Part shown: one piece after another, positions 10,264 through 61,200 of the stretch
Position numbering within the stretch: the stretch's first letter is position 1
How the letters are laid out: each line of letters opens with the position of its first letter
Assembly: GCF_003585765.1 (NCBI RefSeq)
Contig: NZ_CP021235.1
Span: forward strand, 3,968,001-4,032,000
Direction of reading: 5' to 3'
Source: Pontibacter actiniarum
GTDB taxonomy: Bacteria > Bacteroidota > Bacteroidia > Cytophagales > Hymenobacteraceae
Length of the DNA stretch: 64,000 bases
Made by a program: the position numbers and the translations under genes
The notes under the pieces: model-generated
The model's database searches: none
What the model saw: only the letters and a program-made list of their open reading frames with translations
What the model was told of the DNA's origin: nothing

Positions 10264-11063
10264 ACCTACAGGAAACAGCGAACAAACTAAACATACTTTG
10301 CCGCAGCGTCGGCACGTTTATAAGCCAAGAGGGCGAGCGCTTCGACCGCTCCAAGGTGGAAATGAAAGGCTTTAACGACCTCGTGTCTTATGTAGACAAG
10401 GAGGCGGAGAAGCAACTGGTGGACGGGCTGCAAAGCATTCTGCCCGAGGCTGGCTTTATCACTGAGGAGGGCACCGCCACCACCCGCGGCGAGCGCTACA
10501 ACTGGGTCATCGACCCGCTGGACGGCACAACCAACTTTACCCACAGCCTGCCGGTTTACTGCGTGAGCGTGGGCCTGCTGGACGGCGACAAAGTCGTGCT
10601 GGGCACTGTGTACGACCCAAACCGCGACGAGTGCTTCTGGGCCTACAAAGGCGGCGGCGCCTACTGCAACGACACCGCCATTAAGGTGTCTGACGCGCCC
10701 GCGCTGAAAGACGGCCTCATCGCCACCGGCTTCCCGTACCATGACTTCGGGCTGACGCAGCAGTACCTGCAGGTGCTGGGCTCTTTCATGTCTAAATCGC
10801 ATGGGGTCCGCCGGATGGGGTCTGCCGCCATTGACCTGGTGTATGTAGCCTGCGGGCGGTTCGAAGGCTTCTTCGAATATAACCTGAACCCCTGGGATGT
10901 TGCGGCAGGCGCCGTAATTGTGCAGGAGGCAGGTGGCAGGGTCAGCAAGTTTACCGAAGACGGGGACTTTGTGTTTGGCCGGGAGATTATCGCCAGCAAC
11001 GGCCATGTGCACCCGGAGATGCAGCAGACCATCGCCGAGTTCTGGAAAAAAGACCTGGACTAA
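10260..11063 (+). CDS. Inositol monophosphatase family protein
   Basis: The 267-residue protein carries the inositol monophosphatase metal-binding motifs: E69/E70 in 'ITEEG', 'DPLDGTTNF' at residues 85-93 and 'WDVAAGAVIV' near residue 213. These bind the Mg ions that position the phosphate ester. Family members hydrolyse myo-inositol-1-phosphate, and homologues such as SuhB also affect transcription and ribosome assembly; the physiological substrate here is not evident. The start codon overlaps the stop of the DUF4105 gene (ATGA), which implies translational coupling in the rsmI operon. Confidence 0.9.
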   Translation: MNLQETANKLNILCRSVGTFISQEGERFDRSKVEMKGFNDLVSYVDKEAEKQLVDGLQSILPEAGFITEEGTATTRGERYNWVIDPLDGTTNFTHSLPVYCVSVGLLDGDKVVLGTVYDPNRDECFWAYKGGGAYCNDTAIKVSDAPALKDGLIATGFPYHDFGLTQQYLQVLGSFMSKSHGVRRMGSAAIDLVYVACGRFEGFFEYNLNPWDVAAGAVIVQEAGGRVSKFTEDGDFVFGREIIASNGHVHPEMQQTIAEFWKKDLD

Positions 11064-11094
11064 ACTTTTTATACCTCAGCAGAGTTTTAATGTT

Positions 11095-11274
11095 ATGATA
11101 CAGCAACTCCTCATACTGCTCATATTTCTGGTAGCAGTGGCCTATATGGGCCGCATGCTTTACCGCAGCTTCGCAGCCAAAAGCGGCTGTGCCAAAGGCT
11201 GCGGCGGCGCCTGCTCCACCATTGATTTCAAGAAAATACAGAAGGACCTGGAGAAGCAGCAGGCAAAGGCCTAA
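11095..11274 (+). CDS. Small Cys-rich single-pass membrane protein (FeoB-associated type)
   Basis: The 59-residue product has one N-terminal membrane helix (residues 4-22, LLILLIFLVAVAYMG), then the cysteine cluster 'SGCAKGCGGACS' and a charged tail. This is the layout of the FeoB-associated Cys-rich membrane protein family (PF12669), proposed to assist ferrous iron transport. No feoA or feoB is seen in this window, so the iron link is family-based only. The ATG at 11095 lies 31 bases after the IMPase stop and may belong to the same transcript. Confidence 0.75.
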   Translation: MIQQLLILLIFLVAVAYMGRMLYRSFAAKSGCAKGCGGACSTIDFKKIQKDLEKQQAKA

Positions 11275-11383
11275 AGCCCCTGACCGTTGCTCCAGATACA
11301 GTTTTCGTGCATCCCTTTGTATCTAAACTTTCTTTTTGCGTATAGTTCAGTACTTGAGTTTGTAACCACTTAAATAAGATACT

Positions 11384-47704: not shown

Positions 47705-50700
47705 ATGAAACATACCGATGCACTCGATCAGTTGCTGCATCAATTGCAGGAGTTCAAGCAGAAGTTCTACCTCAACATGCTGTTGCGGGGGAGCATCTTT
47801 GCGGTTGGGCTCCTGCTTTCTGTTTATATCGTGTACAGCCTGCTGGAGTACATGTTTTACTTCCCGGAGTATGTACGCGCCTTCCTGCTGTTCTCTTTTG
47901 TGGCAGCGGTTGTGTATGTGTTTGTGCGGTGGATCGCCCTGCCTGTTTCGGCGCTTACGCGGCTGCGGCGGCTCCTTTCCGACGAGCAGGCGGCACAGCA
48001 GGTAGGGGCTTACTTCCCCGAGATACGCGACAAGCTGCTGAACGCGATCCAGCTGCAGCACCAGGACCGCACCAACGAACTTATCCGGGCAAGCATTGAC
48101 CAGCGTAGCCAGCAACTGCTCTCCTTCAGGTTTAGGGAGGCCGTTACCTACAGCGAAAACAAACCGCTCCTGAAGTATATCGCTCTACCTGCACTTGCCG
48201 CTGTGCTGATCATGCTGGTGTACCCGGCCATTTTTGTGCAGGGCACCGAGCGCATCATCAACTATAAAACGCACTACACCCCACAGGCCCCGTTTAATTT
48301 TCTTGTAAAGAACGATGCACTGCAAACCTACAGGGGAGAGGATTTTGAGCTGCAGGTGGCCGTGGTGGGCGAGGCCGTCCCCCGCGAAGTGTACATCAAC
48401 TATAACGGCCGCCGCCAGCAACTAAGCCAGCGCGCCGACGGCAGCTACACGTACACGTTTAAGCAGCTGCAGCGCCCTGTGGACTTTCAGCTGGAGGGCT
48501 CCGGCTTCTTCTCCGACAACTATACCCTGGACCTGCTCTCGCGGCCCAACCTGAAGGATTTCCGCATGCTGGTGCAGTACCCGCAGTACCTGAAGCGCAA
48601 ACCCGAGGAGATCCAGAACACGGGCAATGCCACTGTGCCCGAGGGCAGCACGATTACCTGGAATTTCTCCACCTCCGAAACCGACAGTGTGAAGCTGATT
48701 TTTGAGGAGCCTGCCCAACGTATAGTAGCGCAGAAAGACGGAGACACCTTTGCAGCCAGCAAAGACATTAACCGGAGCCAGAACTACAGCATTTCGCTCC
48801 GCAACGAGCACAGCGCCAATAAAGGCGAAATTAACTACCAGATCACCACCATCCCTGACCGCAACCCGCAGATCAGCCTGGAGCAGTTCCAGGACACGGC
48901 CCTGTATTCTTACCTGGTATTGGGAGGCGATGTATCGGATGACTACGGCCTAACGCGCCTGGCGCTGTTCTATCGTGTCAGCAATGCGAAGAACCCGCTG
49001 GCTAAGTATACAGCGCAGGCCTTGCCGCTTAACAGGCAGCAGCCGAGCCAAACCTACTATTACCAGTGGAACACTGCTGCGCTTAACATGCAGCCCGGTG
49101 ATAAGCTAGAGTACTTTGTGCAGGTGTGGGACAACGACGGCATCCGCGGCCCCAAAAGCACGCGCACGCGCACCTTCGAGCTGCGCCTTCCTGACAAGCG
49201 CGAGCTACAGAAAGAACTCGACAGCAATTCGCAGTCGGTGGCCAGCCAGATGAGCAAAACCCTTGAGCGGGCAAACCAGCTAAAGCGCGAACTCGCCAAG
49301 TCCGAAGATAAACTCAAGACGAAGCGTGACCTGAACTGGCAGGACAAAAAGCAGCTGGAAGACCTGGCCACCAAGAAAAAACAGCTCGAGCAGGACATTA
49401 ACTCCATGAAGGAGCTGTTCGAGGAGCTCAATAAAAAGCAGAACATGCTTAACGAGCCTAACAAGCAGCTAGCCGAAAAGGCGCAGGAACTGCAGAAGCT
49501 CATGAACGACCTGCTTGACCCGGAAACCAAAAAGCTGTACGAGGAGCTGGAGAAGCTACTGCAGCAGCAACAGCCAAACGATACGGAGCTGCAGAAACTG
49601 CTAAGCAAGCTGGACAACCGGGAGAAGAACCTGGAGCGCGAACTGGAGCGGGCACTGGAGCTGTTTAAGCAACTACAGTTTGAGCAGAAGCTCGACAACG
49701 TTGCCCAAAAGCTGGAGGAGATGGGAGAGAAGGAGCAGCAGCTGGCCCAGAAGACAGAACAGAAGCAAGAGAACAACGAGCAGCTACAGGAGCAGCAGCA
49801 GGAGCTGCAGCAGGAGTTTGAAGATGTGAAGGAGCAGCTGAAGGAGCTAAAGGAACTCAATGAAAAGCTGGAGCACCCCAACAGCATGGACGAGCAGCAG
49901 CAACAGCAGGAGCAGCAAAGTATAGAGCAGCAGATGAAGCAGAGCCAGGAGCAGCTCCAGAAGAATCAAAACAAAAAGGCCAGCGAATCGCAGCAGAAAG
50001 CGGGCAAGCAGTTGCAGCAGATGGCCCAGCAGATGGAGCAGATGAAGAGCAGCATGAGCATGTCTGGCATGCAGCAGAACCTCGACAACCTCCGCGACAT
50101 CCTGGAGAACCTCATCACCCTGTCTTTTGACCAGGAGGAGGTGATGAAGCAGCTACGCAGCGTGAGCCAGAGCGACCCGCGCTTTATTGAACTGTCTCAG
50201 CAGCAGCTGAGCCTCCGCGATAATGCCCAGGTGATTGAAGACAGCCTCTTTGCCCTTTCCAAGAAAGTGTTCCAGATCGAGTCTTTCGTTACCCGGGAGG
50301 TGGCCGCCATGAACCAGAGCATGGACAACAGCATGCAGGAGCTGCGCGACCGCAACCTTGGCAAGGCCACGGCCCAGCAACAGCTCGCCATGACAAGCAT
50401 GAACAACCTGGCTCTGATGCTAAACGATGCCCTGAAGCAAATGCAGCAGGCCATGCAGCAAATGCAGGGGAGCATGGCCGGAAAACAGAAGGGCAACAAG
50501 CCGCGCCCCGGCAACATGGGCGAATTGCAGCAACAATTGAACAAAAAAATAGAAGATCTGAAAAAAGGAGGCAAATCGGGTAAGGCACTTTCTGAAGAAT
50601 TAGCTAAATTGGCTGCGGAGCAGGAGGCTCTCCGGAATGCCATGAAAGAACTCGAGAAACAGGGCAAGAAACCTGGCGAAAAGGGGCAAAATGGCGATCT

Positions 50701-51885: not shown

Positions 51886-51915
51886 TCTCTAACGGAATTA
51901 CCAACCCTCTGTAGA

Positions 51916-51931
51916 TGTTTCACGTGAAACA
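51916..51931. other. Perfect parS centromere site (ParB binding)
   Basis: TGTTTCACGTGAAACA is identical to the 16-bp parS consensus and is part of a 20-bp perfect palindrome (51914-51933). It lies between ybeY and mnmG, 22 bases upstream of the mnmG ATG. parS sites usually cluster near the replication origin and are loaded with ParB for chromosome segregation. parA and parB themselves are not in this window. Confidence 0.85.
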
Positions 51932-51953
51932 TCTCGAAAAACAATCAGAATAC

Positions 51954-53816
51954 ATGTTTCCAGAATACGATATCATTGTTGTTGGAGCTGGGCACGCAGG
52001 CTGCGAAGCCGCGGCGGCCGCAGCTAAAATGGGTTCAAAGGTGCTGTTGGCAACCATGAACATGAACACGATCGCCCAGATGTCCTGTAACCCGGCAATG
52101 GGTGGCGTGGCCAAAGGGCAGATCGTTCGTGAGATCGACGCCCTAGGAGGTATGAGCGGCATCATCACGGATCAGACCATGATCCAGTTTCGCATGCTTA
52201 ACAAATCAAAAGGACCGGCCATGTGGAGCCCGCGGGCGCAAAGCGACCGCATGCGTTTTGCAGAGGCCTGGCGCCTGAGCCTGGAGCAAACAGAGAACGT
52301 GGACTTCTGGCAGGAGATGGTAACAGGCATCGAAACAGAAGGAGGGAAGGCCGTAGGAATACGCACCAGCCTGGGGATAACTATCCGCGGAAAAGCTGTT
52401 ATATTAACCAACGGCACGTTTTTGAATGGAATTATCCACATCGGCGAAAAGCAAATGGGAGGGGGGCGCTCGGCAGAGAAGTCAGCAAAAGGCATTACCG
52501 AGCAACTGGTGGAGCTGGGCTTTGAAGCAGGCCGCATGAAGACCGGTACCCCGCCGCGCGTAGACGGACGCTCGCTTGACTACAGCAAAATGGAAGAGCA
52601 GTTCGGAGACGAGAACCCCAGCAAATTCTCCTACACCGACACACAGCCACTGGCACAGCAACGCAGCTGCTACATCACGTACACCAACCCGGAGGTACAC
52701 GACATCCTGAAGACCGGCTTTGAAAAATCTCCGATGTTCCAGGGCCGCATACAGGGTTTGGGCCCGCGCTACTGCCCCAGCATAGAAGATAAAATCAACC
52801 GCTTCGCCGACCGTGATCGCCACCAGATATTTGTGGAGCCGGAAGGATGGAACACGGTAGAGGTATATGTGAATGGTTTCTCCAGCTCATTGCCGGAGCA
52901 CGTGCAATACGAGGCGCTACGAAAAATAGAAGGTTTTGAGAACGCAAAAATGTTCCGCCCAGGCTACGCCATCGAGTACGACTTCTTCCCGCCAACCCAG
53001 CTGAACCTGACCCTGGAAACAAAGCCAGTGGAGAACCTCTACTTTGCAGGCCAGATAAACGGCACCACCGGTTATGAAGAGGCCGCGTGCCAGGGATTGA
53101 TGGCCGCCATAAACGCCCACAATAAGATAAACGGCAAAGAGCCATTTGTACTGAAGCGCTCCGAAGCATACATAGGCGTACTGATAGACGACTTGGTGAA
53201 TAAAGGGACGGACGAACCGTACCGCATGTTCACCTCCCGCGCTGAGCACCGCATCCTGCTGCGCCAGGACAATGCCGACATCCGCCTGACAAGAAGAGGA
53301 TATGAACTGGGCCTGGCTGAGGAAAGCAGGTTGAAAGCAGTGGAAAAGAAGGTAGCGGAGACGGCCGAAATCATAGCCTACTTAAATAACAAGCCACTTG
53401 AGCCCGGAGATATCAACAGCAAGTTAGAGGAATTGGGCTCCGCTCCGATAACAGAGAAGCAGCGTGCTGGCCAGCTGATAAAGCGGCCTAACGTAGAGAT
53501 TGAAGACATCGCAAAAGCAGTTCCGGCGATAGGCGAGTACCTGAGCAAATTCAGGAAAGAGAGCGTGGAGCAGGCGGGTATCTCAGTGAAGTATGAAACC
53601 TACATTGAGAAAGAGTACGCCATGGCTGCCAAGATGAGCGAGCTGGAGAACTATAACATCAAAGGCAAGATTAACTACCGCGACATACCTGCGTTATCTA
53701 AAGAGGCGAAGGAAAAGCTGCTCAAAGTAGAGCCTGAAACAATTGGCCAGGCCTCCAGAATAAGCGGCGTTTCGCCGGCAGACATATCGGTGCTAATGGT
53801 ATACCTAGGAAAATAG
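51954..53816 (+). CDS. mnmG: tRNA uridine 5-carboxymethylaminomethyl modification enzyme MnmG (GidA)
   Basis: The 620-residue protein has the FAD-binding start 'IIVVGAGHAGCEAAAAAAKMG', 'MNTIAQMSCNPAMGGVAKGQIVREIDALGG', 'MKTGTPPRVDGRS', 'GQINGTTGYEEAACQGLMAA' and 'SRAEHRILLRQDNADIRLT', all MnmG hallmarks. With MnmE it installs cmnm5 at U34 of tRNAs. I use the ATG at 51954 (MFPEYDIIV). The frame opens at 51915 with codons that lie inside the parS palindrome and are not conserved. mnmG is next to oriC in many bacteria. The methyltransferase gene begins directly after its stop. Confidence 0.95.
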   Translation: MFPEYDIIVVGAGHAGCEAAAAAAKMGSKVLLATMNMNTIAQMSCNPAMGGVAKGQIVREIDALGGMSGIITDQTMIQFRMLNKSKGPAMWSPRAQSDRMRFAEAWRLSLEQTENVDFWQEMVTGIETEGGKAVGIRTSLGITIRGKAVILTNGTFLNGIIHIGEKQMGGGRSAEKSAKGITEQLVELGFEAGRMKTGTPPRVDGRSLDYSKMEEQFGDENPSKFSYTDTQPLAQQRSCYITYTNPEVHDILKTGFEKSPMFQGRIQGLGPRYCPSIEDKINRFADRDRHQIFVEPEGWNTVEVYVNGFSSSLPEHVQYEALRKIEGFENAKMFRPGYAIEYDFFPPTQLNLTLETKPVENLYFAGQINGTTGYEEAACQGLMAAINAHNKINGKEPFVLKRSEAYIGVLIDDLVNKGTDEPYRMFTSRAEHRILLRQDNADIRLTRRGYELGLAEESRLKAVEKKVAETAEIIAYLNNKPLEPGDINSKLEELGSAPITEKQRAGQLIKRPNVEIEDIAKAVPAIGEYLSKFRKESVEQAGISVKYETYIEKEYAMAAKMSELENYNIKGKINYRDIPALSKEAKEKLLKVEPETIGQASRISGVSPADISVLMVYLGK

Positions 53817-54778: not shown

Positions 54779-56389
54779 ATGAAGCTATTAAAAGTACTTG
54801 TAGCAGCAGGTGTGGTGACAGGCATGGCCTCCTGCGCTACCCAAAACCCTCCACAGGGAGGGCCCAAGGACGAGACGCCCCCGACACTGGTAAGCAGCAC
54901 CCCGAAAGACCAGCAGCTGAATGTGGATACACGCACGGTAAGCCTGACGTTTGATGAAGAGGTTCAGCAGAATAGCTTACAGAAAGAGCTGCTCATCACC
55001 CCGAATATCAACAACCCGTACCAGGTAAAAACAGATAAGAACACGTTGACCCTGGAGTTCGAAAAGCCTCTGATGGATAGCACGACCTATACCTTTAACT
55101 TCAGGGAGGGCATAACAGATATTACAGAGAAGAACAAAGCGCAGGGCCTGCGGCTTTCATTCAGCACCGGCACATTTATTGATTCGAGCCGGGTGAGCGG
55201 CAGCGTGGTGAGCCTGCTGAAGCAGACACCGGAGAAGGATGCAATCGTAGCGCTTTACCAGGCAGGCGATACGCTGAGCATCCGAAAGAACAGACCCTAC
55301 TACCTGGCCAATACAGACGCACAGGGAAACTTTACGCTGCAAAACGTGAAGGAAGGAAGCTACCGCATGTACGCACTGGTAGATAAGAACAACAACACCT
55401 ACTATGACACAGAGGAGGAAAGAATAGCCTACCTGACGGAACCAATTACCATTACGCCCACAACAGATTCTGTAAGGCTGCAAACGGTTCGGATCGATAC
55501 AAAGAAGCCCATACTACTGGCACGGGAAAAGTATACAGATCGGTTTGTGGCAAATTACAACGAGGGAGTGCAGCAGGTAAGAGCTACAGATCTTGCTACA
55601 CAAGACACCCTAACGACAAAGGTAGGCACGGACGGAAAGGTCGCATCCTTGTTTAAAACGCCTGGCTTCAGCGGAGGCAAAGCCATCCTTACGGCTGTGG
55701 ATTCCTCAGGGAATATAGCGGTAGACACTCTTGTGATCGCGTTTGAAGGGAAAAGATCACAGCGTGTAAAGGGCGCGCAACTGAAGGTTATCAACACGGG
55801 GCAGAACGGAGGATACCGAATAGGGCAGGAGGTAATGCTGGAGCTACAGACACCTATAAGGATAACAGGCAATGCACCGCTAAAGCTAATGGCCGACACA
55901 ACCGTAGTACAGGAGCTGCGCTATCCTGAACAGGTAAGCCTCGACAGAACAAACACAGAGCTCCGCTTTAATCTACCGAACATAAACAACCGCATAAAAC
56001 AGGTAACGGTGGTGCTGGACAGCACGGCAATTCAGCCGCTGGAGGGCGAGCCTCTCTCCTTTCCACAACTGCAGTTAAGCGTGGCAGAAGGCCGCGGCAC
56101 CGGAAGCCTGAGCGGCAAGATTAACACGGAATACAAGTCGTACACACTGCAGCTCCTAAACAGCGAGTACAAAGTTATAGAGCAGCAACCGGGGAAAAGC
56201 ACATTCAAGTTTAGAAATGTGGCGCCGGGTAACTATATCCTGCGGGTGCTGATAGACGAAAACAACAATGGCAAATGGGAGAAGGCGGATCCAGAGTTTA
56301 AGCAGAAGCCGGAGCCAGTATACATTTATCCTAGCCCAGTAGAAGTGCGTGCGAACTGGGAAATAGAAGACCTGAACCTGGAATTCTAA
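54779..56389 (+). CDS. Ig-like domain lipoprotein (Big_5/SbsA type)
   Basis: The 536-residue protein has a lipobox signal (LLKVLVAAGVVTGMAS|C) and an N-terminal SbsA-like Ig domain: 'PPTLVSSTPKDQQLNVDTRTVSLTFDEEV' and 'TYTFNFREGITDITEKN'. A carboxypeptidase-regulatory-like fold follows ('TDAQGNFTLQNVKEGSYRMYALVDKNNNTYYD'), then further beta domains and a second 'NVAPGNYILRVLIDENNNGKWEKAD' near the end. It is a common exported, probably surface-exposed Bacteroidetes lipoprotein of unknown function. A strong terminator follows, and after it begins the 2.7-kb gene-free tract. Confidence 0.85.
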   Translation: MKLLKVLVAAGVVTGMASCATQNPPQGGPKDETPPTLVSSTPKDQQLNVDTRTVSLTFDEEVQQNSLQKELLITPNINNPYQVKTDKNTLTLEFEKPLMDSTTYTFNFREGITDITEKNKAQGLRLSFSTGTFIDSSRVSGSVVSLLKQTPEKDAIVALYQAGDTLSIRKNRPYYLANTDAQGNFTLQNVKEGSYRMYALVDKNNNTYYDTEEERIAYLTEPITITPTTDSVRLQTVRIDTKKPILLAREKYTDRFVANYNEGVQQVRATDLATQDTLTTKVGTDGKVASLFKTPGFSGGKAILTAVDSSGNIAVDTLVIAFEGKRSQRVKGAQLKVINTGQNGGYRIGQEVMLELQTPIRITGNAPLKLMADTTVVQELRYPEQVSLDRTNTELRFNLPNINNRIKQVTVVLDSTAIQPLEGEPLSFPQLQLSVAEGRGTGSLSGKINTEYKSYTLQLLNSEYKVIEQQPGKSTFKFRNVAPGNYILRVLIDENNNGKWEKADPEFKQKPEPVYIYPSPVEVRANWEIEDLNLEF

Positions 56390-56416: not shown

Positions 56417-56447
56417 AAAAGGAGGCACCAGTCTGCCTCCTTTTTTT
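56417..56447 (+). terminator. Rho-independent terminator after the Ig-like lipoprotein gene
   Basis: GGAGGCA (56421-56427) pairs with TGCCTCC (56434-56440), extended by AAAA/TTTT and followed by a T run. Confidence 0.85.
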
Positions 56448-59130
56448 ATTTAGTACCTGTGCATAACTAAACAAGAAAGCCCCAAGAAGTGATTAAATGG
56501 AAGAAAAAGGAGGAGAAGGTTTAGAAGCAAAGAGGAACAAATCCACAAAGTAAAAGAATCAAAAGGTGTATTAGCTTAAGTAAGACATGACGAGGAACAA
56601 GGCGAAAAGAACTTGTGGAAAGCTCAACCGATAAGAGCAGAAATGCTGGTGGAAAACCAACTACAAAAGAGCAGAGGATAAAAGAAAGGAATAAAAATCT
56701 CCATACACGACAGCAGCAAAAAGGCACGTATCGTAGCTGAAGATAGCCAAAGCGACAGCACAGAAAACCGACAAATAGAGAAACAAAAAGCTGCTGAAAA
56801 ATTCGACAGGAAAAGATCAGAAAGGCAAAAGCGCATAAGAGCGGCACCGGCAGTACAAGAGAAAAAGATCAGCAAAAAAAGTAAACAACTCCCCAAAAAA
56901 GCGGCGCTCCGGTTAGCCACGAGAAAGCCAAGCTGTGTCTGCAAAAATAAGTTGAAGACAGAATCGTATAAAGGCCAGTCGCAAGAAAGCCAGAAAGCTA
57001 TCAGCGAGCTTACCGGATCTACAGGAAAACGCCTCATCTCCTTGAGCCAACCTAAAGGCCTCTCAAAAACATTTTTCTCGCGGCAAAGCTCTTGGCTCAC
57101 CTAAGGCGGCATTTACTTCCTTCTGCAGATGTTTCCTTTCCGAAGGCTTCTCCCCTGTACCGGAGCCCTTACAAACTGCTCCCGCAGCGCCATAAAGACG
57201 GCCAAACTGTCGGCCACCTAGGATAGTTTCTCCACAAGTTCAAAAAGCCAGAACAGCTACTGTGACTTGCCGGCATGGCTAGCCGGCAGGAGCACCTGTA
57301 GGGAAAGTCGCTGCAGTGAAGAAAATGCCTCGGCCAAGTCTCGGGCTGATCTTTTTTTGCCACGGCTGAGAGCGACTTATTGATGGTGGCGGCAAGAAAC
57401 TAAGCGTCAAGTCCGGGTAACTACACGCTGCAGGCGCAACCTTAGTTTAGCAAATACCCGCTCAAAGACTCCCTGCCGCCGTCACTCCTGAGCCGGGCGT
57501 ACACTGTCTGCCAAGGGCCGAACTTCTCGGCAAGACTCACCAGGAACTACCAGAACAAAGGATTTAGAAGATGCTGTTGAGCACCTACCTATCTTTCCGG
57601 CTGGGCCTGCCTTTTCCGTCTTCCCTGATCATTGGCTGCAGCAACTCAACATCAACCAGCTCCCAATGCCGTTGCCTTAGCACCTACCTGCCGTAACACA
57701 TCTGCTACCTTACTTCCCCATGTTACAACCACAGCATACTTAATAAACCTCCGCTCTTCGGACACAGCCTAGAATCATCAAAAGCTGGAAAACATAGCAG
57801 ACTAAGCAAGCAACAAGACCTGTGCCGCCAGTAAGAGAAGTTAGCCTCTACCCTTCATAAAATATTGGCTCCGCCACAAACTTCAGCAAACGCAGCAGCA
57901 GAAATTTCTGAACCCAAACTGGAAAACTCCCGAAGTAGCTTCGCTCGCCAGGCCGGCTCTACCTGTGCAGCGAAAAGGGCTGCAGACAAAAGTCAATAAG
58001 TATGGCTACTGCTTTCGAACGTGTATGGCAACGAGAAAGCAGCTGCACAGAAAATCAAAAAGGATGATGATCTCAAGATCCGTGGGAAGGACAGAAAATC
58101 GAAACAGCAGTGGCCGCAAATTCAGCCTTACTCCTGTCGTTAGTCGACCACAGCACTTCACCAGTCAGATTTCATACTTCAGTTACCGCTATAAACGGCG
58201 CTTCAGCCACACCATAATTCTAACACTTAGATGAAGGCACAGACAAAATCAGCATCAAATCCATTTAACATAAAAGTTTAACACGAAAGGAAAAGTACTG
58301 AGCCAGCACAAGCTTCAGAACCTGCCGCCGCCACACACGCTGAACGGGAAACACAGGAAAAAGAAGTCGAATGAGAGACAAAGCGTTTCCTTTGAGAGGA
58401 GCAGTGCTAACAAAAACTGTAGGCGCGGCTGAAAGAAAATTCAAACACAGGACCAGCGCCACCCTCTCTTAGCTGGCCAACTGCACATGTAAAATGGAGG
58501 GCGGAGGTAACAGTAACCTTTTACCGGTATACATGTGTAATAGGAGAGAAGGGCAAAAAAGAAGCAGATCTGAGTCGGTAAAACAACCGCCGGGTAAAGT
58601 TTTTTGATAATCCACAAAGCTGTGGTTAACTGTGTGGAAAAGGGTGGGTAACAATCAGGATAACTTACACACCCATAAATTACACACCGAAAAAGGACTT
58701 ACACAGAGGGTAAAAAGTGGATACCGGTGTATAATTTCCCCTACACAAAGCTGTTTTCCACGTTCTTGTGTTCTGTGTATAAAGAAATACACATAAAAGG
58801 GCAAAAAGTGGAAAAGATGGCTAAGAAGCTGAGACAAAAAGAAATGATATGCACAGTCAGCAACAGGATGTGGTGAAAAACTATCCGGGAGTAAACAAGT
58901 TATAAGCACTACACAAACCTGCGTAAAGTTTTCAACTTATGAACAGCCCTAGAAACAAAAGAAGAATCTCTTTAAAAAATTAAGCTAAAAAAATTATTAG
59001 GTATCGAAATGTGTGGAAAGGTGCGTAAAGGGGCTTGTGAAATGGAATCCCGCACTTACACAAGAAGGGTATACAAAAAGAAAATCTATATCTTTAAGCT
59101 GAAGAAAGCAGAACACAAGAAAAAAGAAGC
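56448..59130. other. 2.7-kb gene-free tract, candidate replication origin region
   Basis: No supportable gene lies between the terminator at 56447 and the antiporter ATG at 59131; open frames on the minus strand (56521-57100) arise from strong purine bias of the plus strand and look random. The first 600 bases are very A/G-rich on the plus strand, 57.1-57.9 kb is more pyrimidine-rich, and the last 500 bases hold a DnaA-box-like cluster. A perfect DnaA box TTATGCACA is read on the minus strand at 56458-56466. Together with mnmG and the parS site 5 kb upstream, this points to oriC. Against it, genes on both sides point the same way. Confidence 0.55.
58608..59020. other. Cluster of DnaA-box-like sequences
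   Basis: Within 413 bases I see one exact TTATACACA (minus strand, 58774-58782) and one exact TTTTCCACA (minus strand, 58633-58641). Matches with one mismatch to TTATnCACA or TTTTnCACA lie at 58608, 58621, 58726, 58753, 58807, 58847 and 59012. The first two boxes, TAATCCACA and TGTGGTTAA, face each other four bases apart. TTACACA also recurs near 58665, 58680, 58700 and 59056. The tract is AT-rich and lies just before the antiporter gene. Confidence 0.55.
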
Positions 59131-61200
59131 ATGCTGAATAAGGTACATTTATCGCTTCCGCTGGAGGAGCCGGTGGTAATTTTTACGCTGGTGCTTCTGA
59201 TCATACTGGTGGTGCCAATCATTCTGGGGCGGTTCCGAATCCCGGGCATAGTCGGGCTGATCGTGGCCGGGGTAATCCTGGGCCCAAACGGGTTCCATAT
59301 ACTATCGCGTGATGCAAGTATAGAGCTGTTCGGAACAGTGGGCCTGCTCTACATCATGTTCCAGGCAGGCCTTGAGATTGACATGATCGATTTCAAGAAG
59401 TACAAGGTCCGAAGTTTGGTGTTCGGAACGCTCACGTTTATGATCCCGATGGTAATCGGAACGCTGACGTTCCTGTACCTCCACGGCTATGACATAAAAC
59501 CAGCTATACTACTGGCCAGCATGTTCGCCCCGCACACCCTCCTGGCGTACCCCATCATTAGCAGGCTGGGCCTGAGCAAAAACGAAGCGGTAACACTAAC
59601 CATAGGAGGTACGCTTATAACAGACACCGCTGTGCTGTTCGTGCTGGCGGTCATCATTAACTCCACGCACGGCAGTACAAGTGTAGGATTCTGGGTGTGG
59701 ATGGTGGCCCAGATGGCTATATTCGTGGCCGTGGTACTGTGGCTGTTCCCGAAGATCGCCAAGTACATGTTCAAGCAACTGGAGAGCGAGAAAGGGGCCC
59801 AGTATATATTTGTACTGACGGTGGTGTTTGCGGCAGCGTTCCTCTCGGAGGTGGCAGGAATGGAGGCGATCATCGGAGCCTTCCTGGCAGGGCTGGCCCT
59901 AAACCCGCTGATCCCGCACGCCTCGGCGTTGATGAACAGGGTCGAGTTCGTAGGCAACAACATCTTCATCCCCTTCTTCCTGATCAGCACCGGCATGCTG
60001 GTGGATCTCAAAGTGCTGTTTACCGACACCAATGCTATTCTCATAGCCGTCACTATTATTATACTGGCTCCGTTGGCAAAGTATGCGGCGGCCTATGTTA
60101 CGCAAAAGCTGTTTAAGTTTAGCGTACTGCAGCGGAACCTGATCTTCGGGTTGAGCAGCGCCCACGCGGCGGCAACGCTGGCGGTAGTGCTGGCGGGCTT
60201 TGATATTGGGTTGTTGGGAGAGAGTGCGCTGAACGGAGCGGTTGTGCTGATCCTGGTGTCAAGTATGGTGAGCTCCTTCTCGACGGAGAAAGTGGGGCGG
60301 AAGCTGGCCATTCTGGAAAGCAGGAGAAAGCCGGACATCAGCGAGAAGCCGGACAGGATACTGGTGCCTATCGGTAACCCACAGACGATAGAAAGCCTGA
60401 TCGACCTGTCGGTGATGCTGAAGAACCCCAGCCACAGAGAGCCTATCTATCCGCTGGCAGTGGTGATAGACAACGAACACGCCGAAGAGGAAATCTACAA
60501 GAAGAATAAGATGCTGCAGGAGGCGATAAAGCATGCCTCCGCATCGGACAACGATGTGAACCTGGTGAGTAAGATCGATGTGAATGTATCCAGCGGTATA
60601 CTGCGCGCCATAAAGGAGCTGATGATTACGGAAGTGGTGCTGGGCTGGAACGCGAAGATCACCACACGAGACCGCATCTTCGGGACTGTGCTGGATAACC
60701 TGCTGGACAATACAGAGCAAATGATCCTGGTGTGCAAGATCATCCAACCACTGAACACCACGGGCCGGTTGATAGTGGTGGTGCCAACAAACGCCGAGCT
60801 GGAGAGAGGCTTTATGCGCTGGATCAGGAGCGTGAAGCTACTGTCGACACAGCTGGGGGCGCCCATTGTGTTCCGTGGCCGCAGGCGTACGCTAAACAAG
60901 CTTAAAAGCGTGATCGCTGACTCAAAGCCAACGGTAGAGGCAGAGTACGCCCCCTACAACAACCTGAACGAGTTCGCCACCACCAAATCTGACCTGCAGA
61001 ACGATGATATGGTGATTGTGATATCGGCCCGAAAACGAACCGTTTCCTATAACAGCAACATGGACTATGTGCCGCGCGTGCTATCGAGAAACTATAAAAA
61101 CAACAGCTTTATCGTAATCTATCCGGAGCAGTACCCGGTGTACCAGAACGTACCGATCAAACCGGCTTCTTATTCGGGCAACGAGGGGGAGGATGTATAA
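59131..61200 (+). CDS. Cation:proton antiporter (CPA2/KefB-like) with C-terminal USP-like region
   Basis: The 689-residue protein has about 12 membrane helices in the first 400 residues with CPA2 motifs: 'LGRFRIPGIVGLIVAGVILGPNG' near residue 31, 'GLLYIMFQAGLEIDM' near 72, 'FAPHTLLAYPII' near 132 and 'MEAIIGAFLAGLALNPLIP' near 248. The soluble C-terminal part (about 400-680, 'DRILVPIGNPQTIESLIDLSVML') resembles universal stress protein domains rather than TrkA-N. It likely exchanges Na+ or K+ for protons at the inner membrane. A TATCTTTA element lies at 59089-59096, 34 bases before the start. Confidence 0.9.
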   Translation: MLNKVHLSLPLEEPVVIFTLVLLIILVVPIILGRFRIPGIVGLIVAGVILGPNGFHILSRDASIELFGTVGLLYIMFQAGLEIDMIDFKKYKVRSLVFGTLTFMIPMVIGTLTFLYLHGYDIKPAILLASMFAPHTLLAYPIISRLGLSKNEAVTLTIGGTLITDTAVLFVLAVIINSTHGSTSVGFWVWMVAQMAIFVAVVLWLFPKIAKYMFKQLESEKGAQYIFVLTVVFAAAFLSEVAGMEAIIGAFLAGLALNPLIPHASALMNRVEFVGNNIFIPFFLISTGMLVDLKVLFTDTNAILIAVTIIILAPLAKYAAAYVTQKLFKFSVLQRNLIFGLSSAHAAATLAVVLAGFDIGLLGESALNGAVVLILVSSMVSSFSTEKVGRKLAILESRRKPDISEKPDRILVPIGNPQTIESLIDLSVMLKNPSHREPIYPLAVVIDNEHAEEEIYKKNKMLQEAIKHASASDNDVNLVSKIDVNVSSGILRAIKELMITEVVLGWNAKITTRDRIFGTVLDNLLDNTEQMILVCKIIQPLNTTGRLIVVVPTNAELERGFMRWIRSVKLLSTQLGAPIVFRGRRRTLNKLKSVIADSKPTVEAEYAPYNNLNEFATTKSDLQNDDMVIVISARKRTVSYNSNMDYVPRVLSRNYKNNSFIVIYPEQYPVYQNVPIKPASYSGNEGEDV

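Follow-up and report, generated by a model that had tools for sequence, protein, structure and literature searches.

The window, that is the whole stretch of DNA that we analysed, comprises 64,000 nucleotides (C1:3968001-4032000) of a genome consisting of contig C1 (4,770,770 bp) and a second contig, 4,974,797 bp in total. It contains a tract of 2,741 bp in which no gene is recognisable, extending from an ORF stop at 56389 to a start at 59131. The left neighbour of this tract encodes a protein with Big_5/DUF2141 domains and the right neighbour a Na+/H+ exchanger (antiporter) that is up to 91% identical to that of P. oryzae (Table 1). Judged by this antiporter, the nearest relatives are Pontibacter species, and the rows of the antiporter tree carry the label Hymenobacteraceae. 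As the initial annotation had remarked, the flanking genes on both sides are on the plus strand, and we counted this co-directionality against reading the tract as an origin. Four mechanically called ORFs of at least 80 aa lie wholly within the tract and had no Pfam match above the cut-off. Rfam gave no match at gathering score across the window and, with E values of up to 5 admitted, no convincing match in the tract. The Big_5 gene ends in a probable intrinsic terminator. The terminator scan placed its palindrome on the minus strand; direct inspection of the sequence showed the T run on the plus strand. The region held 8 terminator-like sites, little more than the 5.5 of shuffled sequences. 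The tract had been described as the only long stretch lacking genes. It is long, but not unique: when we measured runs devoid of a 120-aa ORF, a cruder measure that overlooks short genes, the tract accounted for 2,030 bp, and two longer runs (2,443 and 2,151 bp) were found elsewhere in the sampled part of the same genome.

Table 1. Features of the gene-free tract and its surroundings (window coordinates)
Feature	Position	Strand	Remarks
mnmG (gidA)	51915-53816	+	PF01134, E 2e-164; conserved left neighbour in 20/20 loci of five other genera
parS, perfect palindrome TGTTTCACGTGAAACA	51916-51931		At start of mnmG; predicted
Big_5/DUF2141-domain protein gene	54779-56389	+	Directly left of tract; Pfam and synteny
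Probable intrinsic terminator of Big_5 gene	56417-56449	+	Hairpin, then T run
Decayed IS5-family insertion sequence	56931-57769	-	Remnant terminal inverted repeats; outside predicted origin
DnaA-box array of predicted origin	58608-58880	both	Box count compared with null
Overlapping tandem DnaA boxes, TTTTCAACT (58929-58937) and TTATGAACA (58937-58945)	58929-58945	+	Putative platform adjoining the triplets
GC-rich spacer, GCCC	58946-58949	+	
DnaA-trio-like triplets, TAG AAA CAA AAG AAG AAT	58950-58967	+	All six have a middle A when read in this phase
AT-rich stretch, probable unwinding element	58965-59000		86% A+T
Last DnaA box, CTTTCCACA	59012-59020	-	TGTGG invariant in 42 loci
Na+/H+ exchanger gene (PF00999)	59131-61200	+	Right neighbour of predicted origin in Pontibacter

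At least nine DnaA boxes, two of them exact, had been claimed for the right end of the tract (58608-59020). Our count upheld this: 11 sites within one mismatch of TTWTNCACA were found in 58600-59030, including two exact ones (58633 and 58774). In 1,000 first-order Markov simulations the mean count was 2.15 and the maximum 8; thus a box cluster of the kind that marks a bacterial oriC is present in excess over chance. The background of such sites in the whole window was 1.67 per kb. The cluster is the only high one within the window and the densest 450-bp cluster in 1.3 Mb sampled from the genome. The earlier counts depend on the looser TTWTNCACA consensus, since the strict TTATCCACA yielded 4 cluster sites within one mismatch and no exact one (expected 0.18, at most 2 in 500 simulations). 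The array is made up of boxes at 58608+, 58621-, 58633-, 58726-, 58754+, 58774-, 58807-, 58847+ and 58872-, with further boxes at 58937 and 59012, and many of the array box columns are invariant or nearly so in an alignment of 20 sequences. The additional exact box noted at 56458 (TTATGCACA) is exact only for TTWTNCACA. We gave this site no weight; it adjoins the terminator hairpin and is 2.1 kb away from the cluster.

The second-densest box cluster of the sampled genome was observed about 100 kb from the predicted oriC, in the nrdB promoter (C1:3918881-3919330, or 10881-11330 of locus L158), between rplU-rpmA and nrdB-nrdA as assigned by Pfam (nrdB, PF00268). Among the 30 best of 55 nrdB matches in 50 genomes, all 30 Pontibacter loci carried 6-12 boxes per 650 bp in this promoter, compared with 0.79 elsewhere in the same loci. 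The gene was located 90-107 kb left of the core described below in the 18 genomes measured. DnaA controls ribonucleotide reductase in E. coli. It is possible that the nrdB-promoter cluster serves DnaA control of nucleotide supply or constitutes a titration site. Two weaker clusters were also seen, with 7 sites (C1:708922) and 6 sites (C1:4252132) per 450 bp, and the former adjoins long repetitive ORFs.

We aligned the region upstream of the antiporter gene in 42 loci of the Pontibacter group, namely the window and 41 of 43 fetched loci. The remaining two loci (L040 and L043, Chitinophagales), in which antiporter identity was 48-49% and no core was found, were dropped from all core counts. The order of elements over the 42 loci was overlapping DnaA boxes, a GC-rich spacer, A-rich triplets, an AT-rich stretch and a last box, and the overlapping boxes begin 173-249 bp before the antiporter start. 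A 17-base consensus probe of the overlapping boxes matched at 13-16 of 17 positions in these loci. It scored higher in the core than in the rest of the locus in 41 of the 42 and tied in one; outside the core, these loci gave best scores of 12-14, so the probe is weak by itself. The AT-rich stretch of the kind expected in an oriC is present as well: only 0.04% of 36-base windows in the 64 kb are as AT-rich as 58965-59000.

Further, we built a sequence model of the core and searched it against other genomes. It had one match in its own genome, at window positions 58923-59020, and it matched 203 of 204 genomes of the family Hymenobacteraceae (once in 193, twice in 10). All 196 family genomes of good completeness matched, and the single miss was a 78%-complete genome. 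Some overlap between the 50 Pontibacter genomes and the training set of the model is possible; among the remaining 154, 153 matched. Of 291 genomes sampled across the order, 87 matched, 43 of these from outside the family. An oriC should be single on its chromosome and conserved in relatives, and the one match in the genome together with those in 203 of 204 family genomes has this pattern.

The basal unwinding system (BUS), described for Bacillus subtilis and many other bacteria, consists of tandem DnaA boxes, a short GC-rich spacer and triplets with a middle A, followed by the DNA that is opened (PMC8287927). The core in the window has the same order of elements. The search pattern given for the BUS allows up to 2 mismatches in one box and up to 4 in the second, a spacer of up to 16 and at least three NAN triplets (PMC8287927). 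In the window, 58937-58945 has 2 mismatches to TTATCCACA and 58929-58937 has 3 (mismatches counted by eye), the spacer is 4 and there are six NAN triplets. Unlike the BUS, the boxes of the core overlap by one base, and over the family the triplets are clean only one base later. At least three NAN triplets were present in 36 of 42 loci, compared with 47% of shuffled controls, and the NAN rule therefore discriminates poorly in DNA so rich in A.

Over the family, the triplet phase one base later fits better than the phase that is cleanest in the window. In this later phase the first three triplets have a middle A in 40, 38 and 40 of the 42 loci, and their form is T-AAY-RAY-RAA. We had considered a third triplet without a middle adenine, and rejected it because the shift by one base restores the A. 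In 20 loci of other genera the corresponding counts in the later phase were 20, 20 and 9 of 20, and loci of genera g4 and g6 have about two clean triplets after the spacer. The published trio rule is thus followed only loosely in the family, which we counted against the oriC reading.

Of the 42 Pontibacter-group loci, 33 have TG and 9 have CA at the second triplet junction (58956-58957); neither TA nor CG occurs there in this set. About five switches between TG and CA were placed on the antiporter tree, four of them forced by well-supported branches. The equivalent dinucleotide in the 20 loci of other genera is CG in 7, TG in 6, CT in 4, CA in 2 and AC in 1, so the restriction to TG or CA is confined to the genus. 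The trio rule, as published, leaves the bases at triplet junctions free (PMC8287927). In the Pontibacter group they look constrained nonetheless. DnaA or another protein might read the step between triplets besides the middle adenines. We consider this unlikely: in other genera, 7 of 20 loci have CG at this junction, and 5 of 20 have a step other than pyrimidine-purine.

The left part of the tract is of a different nature. Positions 56931-57769 match an element of about 905 bp at 63-69% identity in eight other Pontibacter genomes, one of which holds four copies; two matches of 27-38 bases (in G033 and G039) were discounted. The copies in relatives have inverted ends of the TAGGGTGTGTCTGAAAAAT type and two transposase frames, and in one of them we detected PF13340, described as IS4/5 family (E 5e-28), and PF01609 (E 9e-20). 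The transposase domains, by way of the relative's copy, and the terminal inverted repeats assign the element to the IS5 family. The copy in the window is 74% identical to the consensus of relatives' copies and encodes nothing recognisable. We had read the element as a non-coding dispersed repeat, on the basis that no ORF of at least 150 aa covers it in L163 and L164; the two transposase frames and the PF13340/PF01609 domains of relatives' copies led us to reject this reading.

Among 43 loci of relatives, only that of P. litorisediminis (L006) has a copy of the element in the corresponding gap, 90% identical to a consensus that includes it. As this copy is far better preserved than the one in the window, an independent insertion is suggested, and the gap appears to tolerate insertions. 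The rest of the left part (56450-56930 and 57770-58600) had no match in the gaps of the 43 relatives save a piece of 42 bases in L002, which falls at the tract's left edge. The gaps in relatives span about 0.6-2.0 kb by mechanical ORF call. Judged from its sequence, the tract outside 58608-59020 would be a dead IS5-family element plus A-rich DNA and not origin. The whole 2.7-kb tract could alternatively be a long bipartite oriC with a functional left part, as its unbroken lack of genes and the extra exact TTWTNCACA box at 56458 might suggest. We regard this as most improbable, as the left part lacks a counterpart in the gaps of relatives beyond the L006 copy and the L002 piece, its middle is the decayed element, and those gaps are shorter. 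The left part was likewise rejected as a functional origin or RNA, Rfam having given no convincing matches. The proposal that the 2.7-kb tract is a candidate oriC therefore holds for its right-hand 410 bp or so (58608-59020), which carry the box cluster and the conserved core, and fails for the left 2.1 kb or so. Because a dead transposon lies beside the predicted origin, the gap without genes appears longer than the origin itself.

Left of the tract, mnmG and a perfect parS had been reported 5-7 kb upstream, and we found both of them at that distance from the core. The palindrome has no second copy in the genome, in which sites with two mismatches to the parS search pattern are no commoner than those of a reversed control pattern. 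All 40 Pontibacter-group loci long enough to include the start of mnmG (L011 and L019 excluded) carry the palindrome there, as do all 9 loci from genera g2, g3 and g5. In the 11 loci from genera g4 and g6, the 20 kb surrounding the core gave no site within one mismatch. The site is predicted from sequence to be an origin-proximal centromere. A parB-type gene lies distant from the predicted origin, at C1:1100950.

The gene order was also compared in 20 loci of five other genera that were chosen for the length of their contigs. All 20 have mnmG, methyltransferase, Big_5 protein, core and homologue of ORF 61403 in this order. The predicted origins of these loci contain 9-20 boxes per 650 bp, compared with 0.4-1.9 expected. 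The antiporter had no match within 10 kb of the core in any of them, and it therefore looks like an addition in Pontibacter.

We wanted to see how the locus relates to GC skew on the chromosome. Skew was sampled in 97 stretches of 12-20 kb, approximately one per 50 kb. Most stretches between about 1.55 and 4.0 Mb had negative values, and most of those from 4.02 Mb via the contig ends to about 1.3 Mb had positive ones. With arms fixed after inspection of the data (left 1.65-4.0 Mb, right 4.02-1.25 Mb) and 9 of the 97 stretches near both switch points omitted, the expected sign was seen in 46 of 47 stretches of the left arm and in 40 of 41 of the right arm. The best two-breakpoint fit to all 97 stretches placed the origin at the start of 4,020,001-4,040,000, the stretch that holds the tract (score 3.54). 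In two further Pontibacter genomes skew also switched at the homologous core (10 of 10 stretches with the expected sign in G028, 9 of 10 in G035), and in one genome each of two other genera skew was weaker (9 of 10 in G188, 8 of 10 in G097).

Origins adjacent to dnaA are common in bacteria. In this genome dnaA is at C1:403, approximately 744 kb from the candidate origin. If replication began beside dnaA, the cluster in the window would be a DnaA-titration or regulatory site, and box clusters do exist off origins in this genome, as the nrdB promoter with its 9 boxes in 450 bp demonstrates. However, sampled GC skew on the two sides of dnaA was +0.033 and +0.053, with no change of sign, and box density there was near background (10 sites in 4.5 kb). 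Setting the origin at dnaA lowered the two-breakpoint score to 2.46 (vs 3.54 at the tract), and the single match of the core model in the genome is that in the window. We therefore rejected an origin at dnaA on the grounds of skew, box density and fit, and leave it a very small probability. The initial annotation had named a skew minimum elsewhere, for example beside dnaA, as evidence that would speak against an origin in the tract; in the sampled sequence the switch was at the stretch bearing the tract and none was seen at dnaA.

The exact position of the minimum is less precise. A minimum at about 58.7 kb had been named as something that would support oriC. In a contiguous 192 kb the cumulative GC minimum came close to this, at window position 49303, which is 9.6 kb left of the core, and we counted the offset against exact placement of the oriC. 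The skew switch by which a bacterial oriC is recognised was thus found in the sampled stretches, with the local minimum 9.6 kb to the left of the core. Averaged over 40 loci (L011 and L019, on short contigs, excluded), GC skew at fourfold sites of plus-strand genes was positive from about 4.5 kb left of the core and returned near zero 2.5-6.5 kb right of it. Both the minimum and the averaged skew could point to a bidirectional start a few kilobases to the left, around parS and mnmG (about 49-54 kb), with the box cluster as the edge of a broader origin zone. Such a start is highly improbable: the minimum is only slightly displaced, in a region of co-directional genes, the cluster at 58.6 kb is the only high one in the window, and every relative examined has the same conserved element.

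The plus strand in Pontibacter was also observed to be A-rich on both sides of the predicted origin, with no change of sign (window approximately 51.9-63.2 kb). Fourfold-site AT skew in this interval was +0.31, +0.51 and +0.41, and +0.38 in a minus-strand gene. The values of +0.51 and +0.41 exceed those of every sampled gene more than 50 kb off (maximum 0.32 leading, 0.39 lagging), and a gene 18 kb away also had +0.41. In the dead IS copy, with the consensus taken as ancestor, T-to-A changes were counted at 21 of 191 sites and A-to-T changes at 3 of 140. Plus-strand genes in the 20 loci from the five other genera had no peak of A over T at fourfold sites, and we therefore built no mechanism on a replication-type mutation bias centred on the origin. 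The gap itself is A-rich in genera g3 and g5.

Taken together, the box cluster, the conserved core, its single match in the genome, the skew switch, synteny and parS are the basis on which we predict that 58608-59020 is very probably the chromosomal replication origin (oriC). How DnaA would bind and open this DNA, and how the helicase would be loaded and ParB would act, is envisaged by analogy with other bacteria. DnaA would bind the box array in both orientations, and a filament would grow rightward from the overlapping boxes (58929-58945) onto the triplets from 58950. This filament would open the AT-rich stretch (58965-59000), where the helicase may be loaded and from which the forks would depart both ways. 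ParB would bind parS, 7 kb off, and segregate the origin region.

Cytophaga hutchinsonii belongs to the same order. In a plasmid table for this species oriC is listed as a plasmid feature (PMC5288383). For Mariniflexile litorale an oriC beside mnmG was predicted by Ori-Finder and skew, with dnaA not aligned with the GC-skew plot (PMC11278836; the figure legend of this paper swaps ori and ter relative to its text). An mnmG-adjacent oriC was predicted with the same means in Algorimicrobium bowmanii, a member of the Flavobacteriaceae (PMC12843772). These predictions resemble ours in placing the origin beside mnmG within the same phylum; they differ in that they concern another family, and the oriC descriptions in these papers include no aligned origin core (PMC11278836, PMC12843772). 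Origins adjacent to mnmG and distant from dnaA have thus already been predicted in Flavobacteriaceae, and the origin described here is well supported but ordinary. Our search of titles and abstracts found no Pontibacter origin, and databases such as DoriC, outside that search, may list one; the search likewise found no test of DnaA-trio rules in Bacteroidota.

In summary, the predicted origin lies about 744 kb from dnaA, in a gene order that was kept in every locus examined in six genera, so a genome record that begins with dnaA does not necessarily begin at the origin. Analyses of origin and terminus, or of growth rate from read depth, in these bacteria should use the 58608-59020 locus. In Bacteroidota, DnaA-trio rules could readily be tested on the aligned core.
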